From IMG/VR virus record IMGVR_UViG_3300011113_000046, positions 1-34,404 of that record: a DNA stretch of 34,404 nt; one strand, written 5' to 3'. Shown here one piece after another: positions 12,167-24,952 of this stretch. Position 1 is the first letter of the stretch. Each line of letters begins with the position of its first letter. The position numbers and the translations under genes were made by a program. Under the pieces are notes generated by a model that saw nothing but the letters and a program-made list of their open reading frames with translations, was not told the DNA's origin and ran no database searches. This DNA comes from a virus.

Positions 12167-12736
12167 CTACTTAGAATATTGTATTTTAGTAACTATTGGG
12201 CCACCTGTATAGATATCCCATTTAGTTGATATACTTATCGCTTTTTTAATAATTTTTTCTGCTTGTGTTGCAGTTTCAACCCTGTCAACTCTAAGTGCTT
12301 CCATAACACCAATAGCGATGTCCCCACCGCTACCAGAATAATAGATACCGCGAACATCACGGTCCCAAGAGTAATCCTCAAAAATAGGATAAATGATTCC
12401 GCGAATGCTAATAAGAAATTGTGAATCATGCGCTGCCGCATCGCCGTCCTCTTTCATGTCGTAACCTGCATCGATAAACAGTTTACGCATGGCAGGTATG
12501 AATTTCTTTGTAACAAATAAATCTAGATTTTCGCCTGCTCCTGGTTTCGGTGCTTTCCATCCATATTGTAATAGATTTGAGCCTCGACCTGCGCCAGAGC
12601 CTGCAATTAATATTCCGTTGTTCTCGACAATCTTTGGCGTAGCCATATCGATTGGACGACCAGAATCATCTGAAGAGCGTGAGTCGCATCCAATGACAGA
12701 CCATCCGTCGCCTTGAATAGCAGCAAGTGTTGTCAT
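12167..12736 (-). CDS. Proteasome-like Ntn-hydrolase protease
   Basis: A 189-residue protein that resembles 20S proteasome beta subunits and HslV. The N-terminus is MTTLAAIQGDGWSVIGCDSR. If Met is removed, Thr becomes residue 1, Asp falls exactly at position 17 in the GCDSR motif, and a Lys lies at about position 34, matching the Thr1, Asp17 and Lys33 catalytic set of the family to within one residue. Further matches are ILIAGSGAGRGSNLL (residues 42-56), YYSGSGGDIAIGVMEAL (132-148), the HslV-type SGSGG turn, and a C-terminal YTGGPI. It lies between portal and virion genes, where many phages carry the prohead protease. I infer a capsid-maturation or virion-processing protease. Substrates cannot be read from sequence. 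Confidence 0.85.
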   Translation of the reverse strand: MTTLAAIQGDGWSVIGCDSRSSDDSGRPIDMATPKIVENNGILIAGSGAGRGSNLLQYGWKAPKPGAGENLDLFVTKKFIPAMRKLFIDAGYDMKEDGDAAAHDSQFLISIRGIIYPIFEDYSWDRDVRGIYYSGSGGDIAIGVMEALRVDRVETATQAEKIIKKAISISTKWDIYTGGPIVTKIQYSK

Positions 12737-16932: not shown

Positions 16933-16961
16933 TTGACTTCTTAGGGGTCGTGTGGTATAAT
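16933..16961 (+). promoter_or_regulatory. Rightward promoter P1
   Basis: TTGACT (16933-16938), exactly 17 bases, TATAAT (16956-16961), with an extended -10 TGG directly before it. The -10 is consensus and the -35 is one base off. The start point is expected near 16968. It is the first of three tandem promoters driving the rightward operon. Confidence 0.8.
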
Positions 16962-16992: not shown

Positions 16993-17002
16993 CCGACACG
17001 AC

Positions 17003-17031
17003 TTGACTTCTTAGAATAGGCGTGGTAAGAT
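17003..17031 (+). promoter_or_regulatory. Rightward promoter P2
   Basis: TTGACT (17003-17008), 17 bases, TAAGAT (17026-17031), with an extended -10 TGG. From the GCGTGG before the -10 box to past the start point, it is nearly identical to P3, which points to duplication of a promoter unit. Confidence 0.75.
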
Positions 17032-17087
17032 ACGCAGTATCACAATTAAATAGGGTTAGGCAGTTCGGATATATCGCCTAGTAATGG

Positions 17088-17103
17088 TGTGATACACTTC
17101 ACA
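17088..17103. promoter_or_regulatory. CRP-like operator upstream of P3
   Basis: TGTGA-TACACT-TCACA, extended by one more base pair on each side to GTGTGA and TCACAC. The start is 36 bases upstream of the P3 -35 box, exactly ten more than at the other sites, that is one helical turn. Confidence 0.55.
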
Positions 17104-17123
17104 CAAGTTCTAGCGTGTCGGAC

Positions 17124-17152
17124 TTGACTAGCACAATTAAGCGTGGTAGAAT
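17124..17152 (+). promoter_or_regulatory. Rightward promoter P3
   Basis: TTGACT (17124-17129), 17 bases, TAGAAT (17147-17152), extended -10 TGG. The start point near 17159 puts the 25-bp hairpin at 17176-17270 in the leader of the transcript. Confidence 0.75.
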
Positions 17153-17175
17153 ACGCAGTATAACAATTAAATAAG

Positions 17176-17270
17176 GATATGCGGTTAAGCAGTAGTTAGG
17201 CTTGATTAGATATTAGTAGCAGTAGGTCGCCTATGGTATCACGACCCTAACTACTACTTAGCCGTATATC
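17176..17270 (+). other. Long leader hairpin, possible cis-regulatory RNA
   Basis: Arms at 17176-17200 and 17246-17270 pair over 25 positions: 22 Watson-Crick, two G-U and one mismatch. The 45-base loop has a smaller inner stem (TAGG-TCG-CCTA). It lies in the leader between promoter P3 and the first gene, whose ribosome-binding site follows within 10 bases of the stem. Such a structure could block or pause ribosomes or polymerase, or be an RNase III-type processing site. No known riboswitch class is recognised. Confidence 0.6.
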
Positions 17271-17855: not shown

Positions 17856-18064
17856 TGGACGACCTATACGAATTAGTTAATGAAGAATTGGCTAGACAAG
17901 CGCAGGATATTCTAGCACTTGACCCCAATTCTTTCATAGATTACGATACTGCTATGGCGGATATGATAGAACGCCTAACTGCGGTATGGTATAGCGGTTA
18001 TGAGTTCGGCATGGAAGATAGACTAAACGAAGGTTTAGAAGTAGATGAAGAAGCCGAACTATGA
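17855..18064 (+). CDS. Hypothetical acidic protein, 69 aa
   Basis: A 69-residue acidic helical protein starting at GTG (17855), which shares a base with the preceding stop. Sequence features: DDLYELVNEELARQAQDILA, then DTAMADMIERLTAVWYSGYE and an acidic end GLEVDEEAEL. The high Asp/Glu content suggests DNA mimicry or protein binding, as in anti-restriction proteins such as Ocr, but at this length that is speculation. No family recognised. Confidence 0.65.
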   Translation: MDDLYELVNEELARQAQDILALDPNSFIDYDTAMADMIERLTAVWYSGYEFGMEDRLNEGLEVDEEAEL

Positions 18065-18234
18065 TAACCTTAGAACTAACTCAGAGAGAGTTAGATGTAG
18101 TTAGACAAGCATTACGCACCGAAGAAGAACGCCACAAGCGGAACGACTTTAAGGTGCTAGTATTAGAGATACAAGAATTAAGAAGCAAGATAGTAGATAG
18201 TGTGATTAACACCACACGAAAGGTGCTTGACTAG
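18061..18234 (+). CDS. Small helical protein, 57 aa
   Basis: A 57-residue ORF starting MITLELTQRELDVVRQALRT, with charged helices (EEERHKRNDFKVLVLEIQEL). The ATG overlaps the stop of the previous gene (ATGA). LTQRELDVVRQAL has the feel of a helix-turn-helix start, as in LuxR-type C-termini, but the second helix is not convincing. Its 3' end holds the operator and -35 box of promoter P5. Confidence 0.6.
   Translation: MITLELTQRELDVVRQALRTEEERHKRNDFKVLVLEIQELRSKIVDSVINTTRKVLD
18201..18216. promoter_or_regulatory. CRP-like operator upstream of P5
   Basis: TGTGA-TTAACA-CCACA, one mismatch from TGTGA-N6-TCACA. The start is 26 bases upstream of the P5 -35 box, the same offset as at P1 and P2. It lies inside the end of the preceding gene. 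Confidence 0.45.
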
Positions 18235-18255
18235 GTTATAGCAAGGTGCTATAAT
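18227..18255 (+). promoter_or_regulatory. Rightward promoter P5 for amidoligase operon
   Basis: TTGACT (18227-18232), 17 bases, TATAAT (18250-18255), with an extended -10 TGC. It overlaps the end of the preceding gene and would start transcription near 18262, only about 17 bases before the amidoligase start. It gives the amidoligase/amidotransferase pair its own control. Confidence 0.75.
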
Positions 18256-18278: not shown

Positions 18279-19490
18279 ATGCCGATAGATGAAGAACCTA
18301 CCGAATATGGGTGCGGTTCATGTAGTTATACCACGACTAACGAAGATGACTTGATGTTCGTAGATGATACTCTACTATGTGAAGATTGTAGAGCGTGGTG
18401 TAATAACTGCGAAGAATATACATGGAACGACAATACCCATTATGTAGAAGGTATCGGTGATTACTGCGAAACTTGTTGGGAGAACCACACGAACTATTGT
18501 GAGAGATGTAGCAATACATATTCCGATAGTGAGAGTATGTATCATATCGAAGATAGGGGTGAGTATTGGTGCGAAGGGTGCTATGAGCATGAAGGTTCAT
18601 ACTGCGAAGATTGCGACCAATACTTTAGAGATGAGTGTGAAGGGTGCGGTGAAGGTAGTAGCAGTAGGTCTAACCTAATCCACCAATACTCATACAAGCC
18701 TAGCCCACGCTTCTTTGGTGGAGATAAGCATGGCTTATACTTCGGGCTAGAGTTAGAGATGGAGATTAGGTCGGGTAATCTGCGAGAGAGTTCGCAGTAT
18801 ATCCAAAGTAAAGTAGGCGATAGTATCTACCTTAAAGATGATAGTAGTATCGGTAGGGGTGGATATATGGGGTTCGAGTTAGTATCTCACCCATTATCCT
18901 TCGGTCATTGGACTAGTCAGATGTCTAACCTATGGCAAGGTTTAGATTATCTGCGTGATAATGAGCAAGCAAGGTCATGGGACGCAGAGAACTGCGGTAT
19001 CCATATCCATGTAAGTAGAGCAGGGTTTAAGAGTGGTGCGCATACGCATAGGTGGCTAACGCTTATCTATAAGAACGCACCAGAGATGATGAAGTTCGCA
19101 GGTCGTAAGTCTGACTATGCGAAGTTTAATGATGTGTGGCAGTATGACGAATACGATAGACCATACTTCTCCGTCAAGCACAAGTTAGACGGACGAAGCC
19201 ACACCGAAAGATATTCTGCGGTCAATACGCAGAACGAACACACGCTAGAACTGCGGTTCTTTAGGGGAACTACTAAACCTAGCGGTGTTCTTAGTGCTAT
19301 CGAACTAGCACACGCAAGCATAGAATACACTAGAGATATGACCCTAGCAGATGTTAAGTTAGGCATGTTAAAGTGGGATTGGTTCTATGACTATGTAGAA
19401 ACTAACAATGGTTTCTACCCTAATTTATATGAGCGTATGTCCAAAGTATCTCATGTAAATCTAAAGAATATAGAGATGATAAATGCGTAA
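18279..19490 (+). CDS. Amidoligase with N-terminal zinc-finger array
   Basis: A 403-residue protein of two parts. Residues 10-125 hold eight CxxC pairs (C12/15, C34/37, C41/44, C63/66, C74/77, C98/101, C109/112, C120/123), enough for about four LIM- or treble-clef-like zinc fingers. Residues 150-350 match the amidoligase family related to glutamate-cysteine ligases: LYFGLELEMEI with metal-binding Glu (158, 160), GFELVSHPLSF (E200), NCGIHIHVS (H242, H244) and ERYSAVN plus LELRFFRGT (E324, R326). The family makes amide bonds using ATP. An amidotransferase follows 11 bases later, a pairing known in this superfamily, and would supply ammonia. The substrate is unknown: peptidoglycan, protein or a small molecule. 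GGGGG lies just before the ATG. Confidence 0.85.
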   Translation: MPIDEEPTEYGCGSCSYTTTNEDDLMFVDDTLLCEDCRAWCNNCEEYTWNDNTHYVEGIGDYCETCWENHTNYCERCSNTYSDSESMYHIEDRGEYWCEGCYEHEGSYCEDCDQYFRDECEGCGEGSSSRSNLIHQYSYKPSPRFFGGDKHGLYFGLELEMEIRSGNLRESSQYIQSKVGDSIYLKDDSSIGRGGYMGFELVSHPLSFGHWTSQMSNLWQGLDYLRDNEQARSWDAENCGIHIHVSRAGFKSGAHTHRWLTLIYKNAPEMMKFAGRKSDYAKFNDVWQYDEYDRPYFSVKHKLDGRSHTERYSAVNTQNEHTLELRFFRGTTKPSGVLSAIELAHASIEYTRDMTLADVKLGMLKWDWFYDYVETNNGFYPNLYERMSKVSHVNLKNIEMINA

Positions 19491-19501
19491 GGGGGGTAGT
19501 T

Positions 19502-20404
19502 ATGTGTCTATTGGTAGTATGTAATCCTAACTCGACACCGAGTAAAGATGACTTACACAATGGTGCGTGTAGTAATCCGCATGGCTTTGGCTTTGCGATA
19601 CAGACACCCGAAGGTATTATATCTGAACGCAGTATGTCTGCGAAGAAGTCGGTCAAGCGGTTCTTAGAACTGCGTGAGCAGTATCCCGAAGGCTACGCTA
19701 TGTGGCACGCAAGATACGCTACGCATGGTGTTAAGAACGAACAGAACTGCCACCCTTTCCAAGTAGGTGGTAGCGACTTGACTTATCTCGCTCACAATGG
19801 TGTGTTAGATATTCATATACCGAAAGGTGATAAGCGTAGTGATACTCGTATCATGGCAGAAGAATTACTGCCACGACTAGGTGGTGTGTCTGCGTTAGAT
19901 GACGAATATGTATATGATATGGTGTCGTCTTGGGCTAGTGGTAGTAAGGTAGCAATCATGACCTTAGACCCTAGTGCCAAATATACCATGTATATTATTA
20001 ACGAAAGTCTAGGCACATGGGACGATAGCGGTGTATGGTGGTCTAACCAATCACACAAGCGCACAGTATCCACACCACGCACTACTTCATATACTAACTA
20101 CTATGGGTATGATGACTATCTCGACAAGAGTATAAGTGGTAGTATGGAATTAGATGATTACAATGCCGATATACTAGCCAAGTGTATGTGGTGTGATGAA
20201 GATGTAGACATGGAAGATAATCCATACTACTGCGATATGTGTATGAACTGTTTCGATTGCGGTATGACTATGACGGATTGTATGTGCTACAATGAAGCCG
20301 ACAAGTTCTCCATAGTCCAAGAACAAGAGTATATAAATCGCTACTTATCAGATGATAATTGGCACTCAAAGAAGTGGTATAGTAAAGAACCACTTGACTT
20401 CTAG
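19502..20404 (+). CDS. Class II glutamine amidotransferase with zinc-binding C-terminus
   Basis: A 300-residue Ntn hydrolase. The N-terminus MCLLVVCN puts Cys2 as the nucleophile once Met is removed. Further class II marks are HGFGFA (residues 27-32), HARYATHG (69-76, with R71 binding glutamine), CHPF (83-86), LAHNGVL (96-102, N99 and G100 oxyanion site) and the SDTRIM stretch (113-118). Residues 227-261 carry eight Cys (227, 230, 243, 246, 249, 252, 259, 261) in CxxC pattern, a zinc module not usual in this family. It lies directly downstream of the amidoligase, also zinc-rich, which suggests the two dock through these modules and channel ammonia from glutamine to the ligase. The final product is unknown. 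Confidence 0.85.
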   Translation: MCLLVVCNPNSTPSKDDLHNGACSNPHGFGFAIQTPEGIISERSMSAKKSVKRFLELREQYPEGYAMWHARYATHGVKNEQNCHPFQVGGSDLTYLAHNGVLDIHIPKGDKRSDTRIMAEELLPRLGGVSALDDEYVYDMVSSWASGSKVAIMTLDPSAKYTMYIINESLGTWDDSGVWWSNQSHKRTVSTPRTTSYTNYYGYDDYLDKSISGSMELDDYNADILAKCMWCDEDVDMEDNPYYCDMCMNCFDCGMTMTDCMCYNEADKFSIVQEQEYINRYLSDDNWHSKKWYSKEPLDF

Positions 20405-21025: not shown

Positions 21026-21457
21026 ATGAAGAAGGGTCAAGCAACATTTTGGAATTACTATACTGTCAATCGTGGCAGTAAAGAGAATAAAAATATACTA
21101 AGTAAGAACGGATTGTGTCGCAACAGCGACGACCCTGACCTATGGTTCTCTGATGAAATGGAACAAGAGAGGTCGGGCAGACCTTCCATTAAAGATAGTG
21201 AGATGTTAGTTGCTAGAACTATACAAGCACTAGAGATATGTAGTATGTGTAGCGTTAAAGACTTATGCTTAGAAGAAGGTATGCGTAAGGATAACTTAGA
21301 GCATGGCGTATGGGGTGGTGTTATGGCAGGTGAAAGACTTGTCGCAGCAGGAGTTCCGATAGTCGGCTTTGATAGAAGTAAGAAGGTTACATTTGCTAAT
21401 AAAGTTAGGAACAGAATAAAGTTCAACGAAGAGGAGAGATATGAGAAACAGGTATAG
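21026..21457 (+). CDS. WhiB-family Fe-S transcription factor
   Basis: A 143-residue protein with the WhiB signature: C31 in NGLCRNSDDPDLWF, then ICSMCSVKDLC with C72, C75 and C81, giving the four [4Fe-4S] ligands, and the G[VI]WGG turn HGVWGGVMAGERL (residues 93-105). The C-terminal tail is basic (KKVTFANKVRNRIKF), as expected for DNA contact. WhiB proteins are restricted to Actinobacteria and their phages, so the host is almost certainly actinobacterial. In mycobacteriophages such proteins can bind the sigma factor and block host WhiB function. The gene overlaps the lytic-enzyme gene downstream by 17 bases. Confidence 0.92.
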   Translation: MKKGQATFWNYYTVNRGSKENKNILSKNGLCRNSDDPDLWFSDEMEQERSGRPSIKDSEMLVARTIQALEICSMCSVKDLCLEEGMRKDNLEHGVWGGVMAGERLVAAGVPIVGFDRSKKVTFANKVRNRIKFNEEERYEKQV

Positions 21458-21851
21458 AGTTATACTATCAGTCGTGCTTGCTTTTGTTCTTGGCTTTGCT
21501 TCGGCTTTCCCATTGACAGACGCAACTAATAAATATCTGAAAGATAATCAAGAGAAGAAATGGACAGTAGAAGATAGTAAAGCCTACGCACTAGACCAAC
21601 TACTTGATTGGCACTATAAAGAATATAGATGTCTTGTTAAACTATGGGGCAAAGAGAGTGCTTGGAGACCCGAAGCATTTAATAAGATTAAAGTAATGGG
21701 CAAGAATGCTGGCGGTATTCCGCAGTTGCTAGGCTTAGACCCTGCGACACCAGCAACAATTCAAATTGACAGAGGGCTTAAGTATATCTACCACAGATAT
21801 GATACGCCTTGTAATGCTTGGGCATTCTTTCAGAAGAAGGGTTATCACTAA
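21441..21851 (+). CDS. Lytic transglycosylase-like secreted protein
   Basis: A 136-residue protein with an N-terminal signal or anchor segment (RYRVILSVVLAFVLGFASAF, residues 4-23) and a small lysozyme-like domain: CLVKLWGKESAWRPEAF with Glu72 as the likely catalytic acid, then NAGGIPQLLGLDPATP and LKYIYHRYDTPCNAWAFFQK at the C-terminus. This pattern matches actinobacterial transglycosylase-SLT-like domains (aggregation-promoting-factor C-terminus type). Position in the rightward early block is unusual for a lysis enzyme, so it could act during entry or as a signal-arrest endolysin. Two cysteines (64 and 123) could form a disulfide outside the membrane. Confidence 0.78.
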   Translation: MRNRYRVILSVVLAFVLGFASAFPLTDATNKYLKDNQEKKWTVEDSKAYALDQLLDWHYKEYRCLVKLWGKESAWRPEAFNKIKVMGKNAGGIPQLLGLDPATPATIQIDRGLKYIYHRYDTPCNAWAFFQKKGYH

Positions 21852-24586: not shown

Positions 24587-24952
24587 TTACTTATCCCATT
24601 TATCTCTCAGAACTAGCAGTCCTATGATTGCGTAGTTAGCCATATCCTTGAAGGAATCTTCAAGTGATTCGTGCTCTGGATTTTTATTGTTGTCAACTAA
24701 GTTATTTATCCGTGCTAGTTTATCATGCATCCTAACACGAAGACCATTGATTGCACCGCCAGGTGCGTCGGCAATATTGCGTGGACCATAATCCCTATGC
24801 TTAGATAGCAATAGTTTTTCTAGTTCTCTGAATGCTTTATCTACATCTCTTTCGAAAGTGGAACTGATATCTTCACCTCTAACCCCGATTGATTTATGGT
24901 TATGTCCGTTATCTTGAACCCTTGATTTATTAAGTGCTGTATGATTTGCCAT
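24587..24952 (-). CDS. Nmad1/DUF1599-like nucleotide-metabolism protein
   Basis: A 121-residue protein. The second half, from FRELEKLLLSKHRDYGPRNI through INGLRVRMHDKLARINNLVD to LEDSFKDMANYAIIGLLVLR, resembles DUF1599 (nucleotide modification associated domain 1), an all-alpha fold related to MazG-like pyrophosphatases. Members are predicted to act in synthesis of modified nucleotides or in clearing unwanted ones. A GGAG lies upstream of the ATG. The N-terminus is polar and likely flexible. The adjacent phosphoesterase and primase genes fit a nucleotide-related role. The family name is from memory of its motif. Confidence 0.7.
   Translation of the reverse strand: MANHTALNKSRVQDNGHNHKSIGVRGEDISSTFERDVDKAFRELEKLLLSKHRDYGPRNIADAPGGAINGLRVRMHDKLARINNLVDNNKNPEHESLEDSFKDMANYAIIGLLVLRDKWDK

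Follow-up and report, generated by a model that had tools for sequence, protein, structure and literature searches.

A phage amidoligase-amidotransferase gene pair with predicted zinc-type modules is a candidate glutamine-dependent amidation system

The analysed DNA, hereafter the window, is a virus record of 34.4 kb (34,404 nucleotides), in which an amidoligase gene and a class II glutamine amidotransferase (GATase) gene occupy positions 18279-20404 (Table 1). The two genes are jointly present or lost and are adjacent in unrelated phages and plasmids; they therefore very likely act as one system. Their sequences and structural models make it probable that this system carries out a joint glutamine-dependent amidation. 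Both reading frames are located exactly as an earlier note on this DNA had placed them, the GATase 11 bases after the amidoligase. Analysis of substitutions showed dN/dS values mostly far below 1 for both genes, indicating purifying selection, with the comparison with one relative (L001) containing too few changes to be informative. Both proteins strongly match PHROGs whose function is unassigned (PHROG 22302 at 1.4e-31 for the amidoligase and PHROG 25883 at 3.1e-40 for the GATase), and neither matches the anti-phage defence families of PADLOC.

Table 1. Positions of the gene pair, its predicted domains and the flanking signals in the window
Feature	Positions	Strand	Description or basis
Predicted sigma-70-like extended -10 promoter, TTGACT-N17-TATAAT	18227..18255	+	Overlaps the end of ORF 18061-18234
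Amidoligase gene	18279..19490	+	403 aa; N-terminal Cys module and glutamine-synthetase-like carboxylate-amine ligase domain
N-terminal zinc-type module, residues 12-123	18312..18647	+	Eight CxxC; conservation, pLDDT, Foldseek, profile matches
Catalytic amidoligase domain, residues 133-390	18675..19448	+	Alignment, AlphaFold2 model, Foldseek
GGGGGG, putative ribosome-binding site between the genes	19491..19496	+	Sequence; within the 11-base spacer
Class II GATase gene	19502..20404	+	300 aa
Ntn-type glutaminase core, residues 1-185	19502..20056	+	C2, H69-A-R71, T74-H-G76, N82, H98-N99-G100, D114
C-terminal eight-Cys zinc-type module, residues 228-262	20183..20287	+	C-2-C-12-C-2-C-2-C-2-C-6-C-1-C

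The catalytic domain of the amidoligase reaches the curated score of Pfam Amidoligase_2 (PF12224; 31.5 bits against a cut-off of 22). Its catalytic set comprises E158, E160, D188, E200, H242, H244, R276, R311, N316, N319, E324 and R326. Conservation was assessed in 70 distinct amidoligases and 65 GATases. E158/E160 are found in 68 of the 70 amidoligases, H242/H244 in 69, and R311, N316, N319, E324 and R326 in all 70; the motifs E158/E160, H242/H244 and R326 named in the earlier note are thus intact and nearly invariant among the homologues. The AlphaFold2 model of the amidoligase has a pLDDT of 84 and a pTM of 0.64, and Foldseek comparisons of the enzyme domain showed resemblance to YbdK (E 1.3e-5), GmaS, glutamine synthetase, Dop, PafA and glutamate-cysteine ligase. 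By score, catalytic motifs and a modelled glutamine-synthetase-like fold, the protein is assigned to Amidoligase_2, and ATP-dependent amide formation is predicted for it.

The GATase matches Pfam GATase_6 (6.4e-6) with 26.7 bits against a cut-off of 27, and also GATase_4; at a looser limit (E up to 1) GATase_6 is matched by 39 of 39 members. C2, N99/G100 and D114 are each kept in 64 of the 65 GATases and R71 in all of them (H69/R71 in 64-65), so that the catalytic residues C2, R71 and N99/G100 proposed earlier are likewise retained across the family. In an orthologue modelled by read-through (described below), the core has a pLDDT of about 90 and matches the GlmS glutaminase (1xff, probability 1.00, TMt 0.51), with further matches to GFAT, PurF and, lower, EgtC (4zfk).

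Linkage of the two genes was analysed in loci found via either protein in two batches, order being scored only on contigs that extend far enough; the loci were counted as one lineage because the wider synteny is common to all of them. The order amidoligase to GATase on one strand, with a spacing of -1 to 35 bases, is kept in every long-enough locus of the lineage. An independent sampling, in which 25 loci with at least 5 kb of upstream sequence were picked by their terminase and not by the pair, showed both genes at the same place in 24. Both genes are missing from this syntenic place in one contig (L253) and in the public genome OX376641 (L262), where the WhiB, transglycosylase-like and sigma-like neighbours remain. 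Outside the lineage, the two genes again stand side by side in Marvin-like mycobacteriophages, OM43 phage MEP402, a Manatee Spring podovirus, MW202733, the gut phages L088 and L179 and Bifidobacterium phage BA720P3. The view that the two genes belong together is borne out by these comparisons: they are adjacent wherever both are visible, are present or absent jointly, and are neighbours in unrelated phages and in plasmids. The distribution suggests a cassette that is gained and lost as one unit.

Several further loci were recorded. Two large mycobacterial plasmids (L173 and L174; M. abscessus pGD21-2 and M. paragordonae) carry a Marvin-like pair with Cys modules. The C. difficile phage AR1086-1 (L175) has an amidoligase with no recognisable GATase beside it, the neighbouring genes being of unassigned function; thus the partner is not always needed. 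A single frame matching both families (L074:2443-4023) was considered as a natural fusion and rejected: its amidoligase is truncated and the GATase start, including Cys2, is missing, which points to a deletion or a chimaeric contig. A third conserved partner or substrate gene was also rejected, neighbours being kept only inside the lineage, with no such gene seen next to the outgroup pairs. A scan of genome contigs for cellular homologues with lineage-specific patterns gave one phage-like MAG contig.

The N-terminal part of the amidoligase is rich in cysteines. Sixteen of the 17 Cys of the protein lie within residues 12-123 as the eight CxxC pairs that the earlier note had described, and none of 20,000 shuffled sequences reaches this count. 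Apart from Cys34 and Cys123, each of these cysteines recurs in about 90-100% of homologues. The first four pairs are spaced CxxC-18-CxxC-3-CxxC-18-CxxC, a LIM-like arrangement, and the AlphaFold2 model has a pLDDT of about 87-94 over residues 11-110. Foldseek comparisons of the module returned the LIM domains of LMO2 (probability 0.89, E 0.046) and FHL2, and a profile of the full family matched first the LIM proteins CRP1, CRP2, FHL and PINCH (CRP1 best, E 0.001). A public phage protein of similar fold already carries the automatic name 'LIM domain containing protein'. However, the score of Pfam LIM (PF00412) is not reached, with only 1 of 49 amidoligases matching (E 0.056), and a profile of the module alone weakly prefers FYVE and Sir2 and is not decisive. 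For these two reasons the module is termed LIM-like rather than LIM; it is predicted to be of the zinc type and may bind zinc. In several close pairs, dS is far higher in the module than in the adjacent enzyme domain; against L009, for instance, pS is 0.98 and 0.28, respectively. This difference suggests that recombination has exchanged the module in a mosaic manner.

The C-terminal module of the GATase contains Cys228, 231, 244, 247, 250, 253, 260 and 262, confirming the eight cysteines noted previously; its CxxC count is matched in 9 of 20,000 shuffles. These cysteines are kept in about 88-95% of the 65 homologues, and also in the GATases of Marvin and the mycobacterial plasmids. Pfam LIM matches only 1 of 39 GATases (E 0.067). 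In the orthologue model the module is tethered by a low-confidence linker (pLDDT below 50).

The region upstream of the pair does not bear out the regulatory claims of the earlier note. The promoter-like site, conserved only in the closest relatives, need not be dedicated to the pair, being one of several alike. Similar sites on the plus strand, each combining TTGACT, a 17-base spacer and a TG ahead of the -10 element, lie at 16933, 17124, 17701 and 18227, upstream of the plus-strand gene block, and short direct repeats lie around 17000-17180. The proposed CRP-like site (TGTGATTAACACCACA, about 18201-18216) falls inside the coding 3' end of ORF 18061-18234. It is common only to the closest relatives, in which the end of this ORF is also conserved, and is absent from more distant ones.

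According to the proposed mechanism, Cys2 of the GATase would hydrolyse glutamine and release ammonia, the amidoligase would use ATP to activate a carboxylate as an acyl phosphate, as in glutamine synthetase-like ligases, and the ammonia would convert the activated carboxylate to an amide. The likeliest role of the LIM-like module is that of an adaptor that would bind the target, recruiting a macromolecule of the host or the phage. The zinc-type module of the GATase would be a flexible, lineage-specific appendage, perhaps contacting the target or a partner. The cassette as a whole would serve an accessory host-interaction function. That the substrate is a protein or peptide recruited through the LIM-like module is plausible, though short of probable.

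The earlier note had read the two Cys modules as matching parts that dock on each other to form an ammonia-channelling complex, which the present comparisons render decidedly unlikely. Both modules occur jointly in the actinophage lineage, in Marvin and in the mycobacterial plasmids, and their distances correlate beyond those of the enzyme cores when all lineages are taken together (partial Mantel r 0.28, 109 pairs, 0 of 500 permutations). However, the correlation is -0.12 in the window's clade alone, and co-variation was rejected as inconsistent. Comparison of the module profiles showed no similarity between them (hhalign probability 2.3). The modules are also lost independently: MEP402, MW202733, the Bifidobacterium phage and the gut phages have no GATase module, yet Cys pairs persist in most of their amidoligases, whereas phiEco32 (L090) and LUZ24 (L091) have CxxC-rich C-termini on their GATases and none on their amidoligases. 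A single-chain pseudo-complex of 698 aa was modelled from an orthologous pair (L013), whose 12-base spacer places both genes in one frame, by reading the stop codon as Gln. The model (pLDDT 82, pTM 0.46; alignment of 121 rows, 27 of them paired) showed no confident interface, and the GATase module sits on a disordered tether (residues 595-629). Because the artificial linker is short and the alignment shallow, this result is a weak negative.

Any target named for the pair is a guess, and the sequence evidence favours none of wall, protein and DNA. Actinobacteria normally amidate stem peptides (MurT/GatD, LtsA), which would fit a cell-wall role: by amidating or extending carboxylates on the stem peptides of peptidoglycan, the pair would block superinfection or resist lysins. 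A conserved transglycosylase-like gene (21441-21851) 1 kb downstream of the pair points in the same direction. Such a role has been proposed for the larger phiEco32/LUZ24/PSA-HP1 cassettes, the related genes being regarded as a peptidoglycan modification cassette against superinfection (PMC5498523), and two later papers, with reference to Iyer 2009, repeat a role in the wall or at the receptor (PMC10580990, PMC11318856). However, a second COOH-NH2 ligase, an ATP-grasp ligase and a gamma-glutamyl cyclotransferase were not recognised in the window or in a near-complete relative of 39.5 kb, in a search that covered all but some small ORFs, and for a LIM-like adaptor a protein is a more fitting target than a small peptide linked to lipid. 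The cell-wall role is thus rather doubtful. A phage-encoded protein-amidating machine, whose tandem LIM-like zinc fingers would select a host protein for amidation of its acidic side chains or C-terminus with glutamine-derived ammonia, is an unlikely reading as well; LIM-type zinc-finger adaptors are best known from eukaryotes. Less likely again is a gamma-glutamyl logic like that of EgtA/EgtC, with the ligase linking an amine to the side chain of glutamate and the Ntn hydrolase removing or transferring the glutamyl group. The ligase model does resemble glutamate-cysteine ligase and GmaS, larger phage cassettes include a gamma-glutamyl cyclotransferase, and the likeness of the GATase core to EgtC, which trims instead of supplying ammonia, is a point against joint amidation. 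However, the EgtC match is poorer than those to GlmS and PurF, and the cyclotransferase was not recognised in either sequence. Amidation of a carboxylated base in hypermodified DNA is highly improbable. A DUF1599 ('nucleotide modification associated') gene at 24587-24952 on the minus strand is present in 18 of 18 relatives tested, but in 0 of 11 other records bearing the pair or the amidoligase (outgroups and phiEco32/LUZ24), so that its co-occurrence is confined to the lineage and was rejected as a clue. Thymidylate synthase, hydroxymethylase and deazaguanine genes were not recognised in the families scanned, nor from gene size in the 39.5 kb relative. Joint glutamine-dependent amidation remains the preferred reading of the pair.

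In IMG/VR, the relatives matched number at least 589. The 39.5 kb relative matches nearly the whole window with permuted ends, its extra parts lying mostly among structural-type reverse-strand genes. The host is likely actinobacterial, because the phage carries a WhiB gene and because Streptomyces phages have the nearest terminases after those of two unannotated Caudovirales. A gene at 12167-12736 on the minus strand, adjoining the portal gene, encodes a proteasome/HslV-like Ntn hydrolase (PHROG 1040, E 1.4e-18) and is perhaps a prohead protease. A link between this gene and the pair by analogy with pupylation was rejected: the gene occurs in 4 of 8 relatives and in 0 of 8 outgroup records.

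Comparison with known systems showed that phage amidoligase-GATase pairs have already been published. The pair of the Marvin group (LittleLaf gp108/gp109), noted previously as cited in PMC10580990, has the order and adjacency of the window pair, with 33% identity in the amidoligase and 35% in the GATase; its amidoligase N-terminus is Cys-rich and its GATase C-terminus has the same eight-Cys pattern. Differences are a lower number of CxxC and a longer C-terminal part in the Marvin amidoligase, a spacer of 78 bases, and an annotation that reads only 'glutamine amidotransferase domain protein'. The cassettes of phiEco32, LUZ24, PSA-HP1 and RHph_N3_19 also place Amidoligase_2 and a class II GATase near replication genes, but they add a second ligase, an ATP-grasp enzyme and/or a cyclotransferase (PMC5498523; PMC3890496; Iyer 2009 as cited by others). 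In phiEco32 and LUZ24 the amidoligases have no Cys module, whereas the GATases carry C-terminal CxxC. In the OM43 phages MEP401/402, in which amidoligase (PF12224) and GATase (PF13522) were reported side by side as auxiliary metabolic genes (PMC10580990), the GATase has no Cys module and the amidoligase only a short Cys cluster. The N-terminal module shares tandem CxxC spacing and model fold with the LIM domains of LMO2, CRP1 and FHL2, but it lies below the Pfam LIM threshold and its zinc and partner binding are predictions. The catalytic fold of the amidoligase model is that of PafA/Dop and the YbdK carboxylate-amine ligases, although identity is about 8-14% and a Pup-like gene was not found. 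The zinc-type modules on the two partners seem undescribed: the literature search returned no description of them on either protein, save the automatic name mentioned above.

Almost all members of an abundant group of small phages, probably of actinobacteria, carry the pair. It is a reduced version of a cassette that has attracted guesses at its role since 2009. Phage amidation of proteins, if true, would reprogram or protect the infected cell. With two genes, one testable active-site mutant for each and mycobacteriophage relatives that infect M. smegmatis, the question of what phage amidoligases target becomes directly testable.
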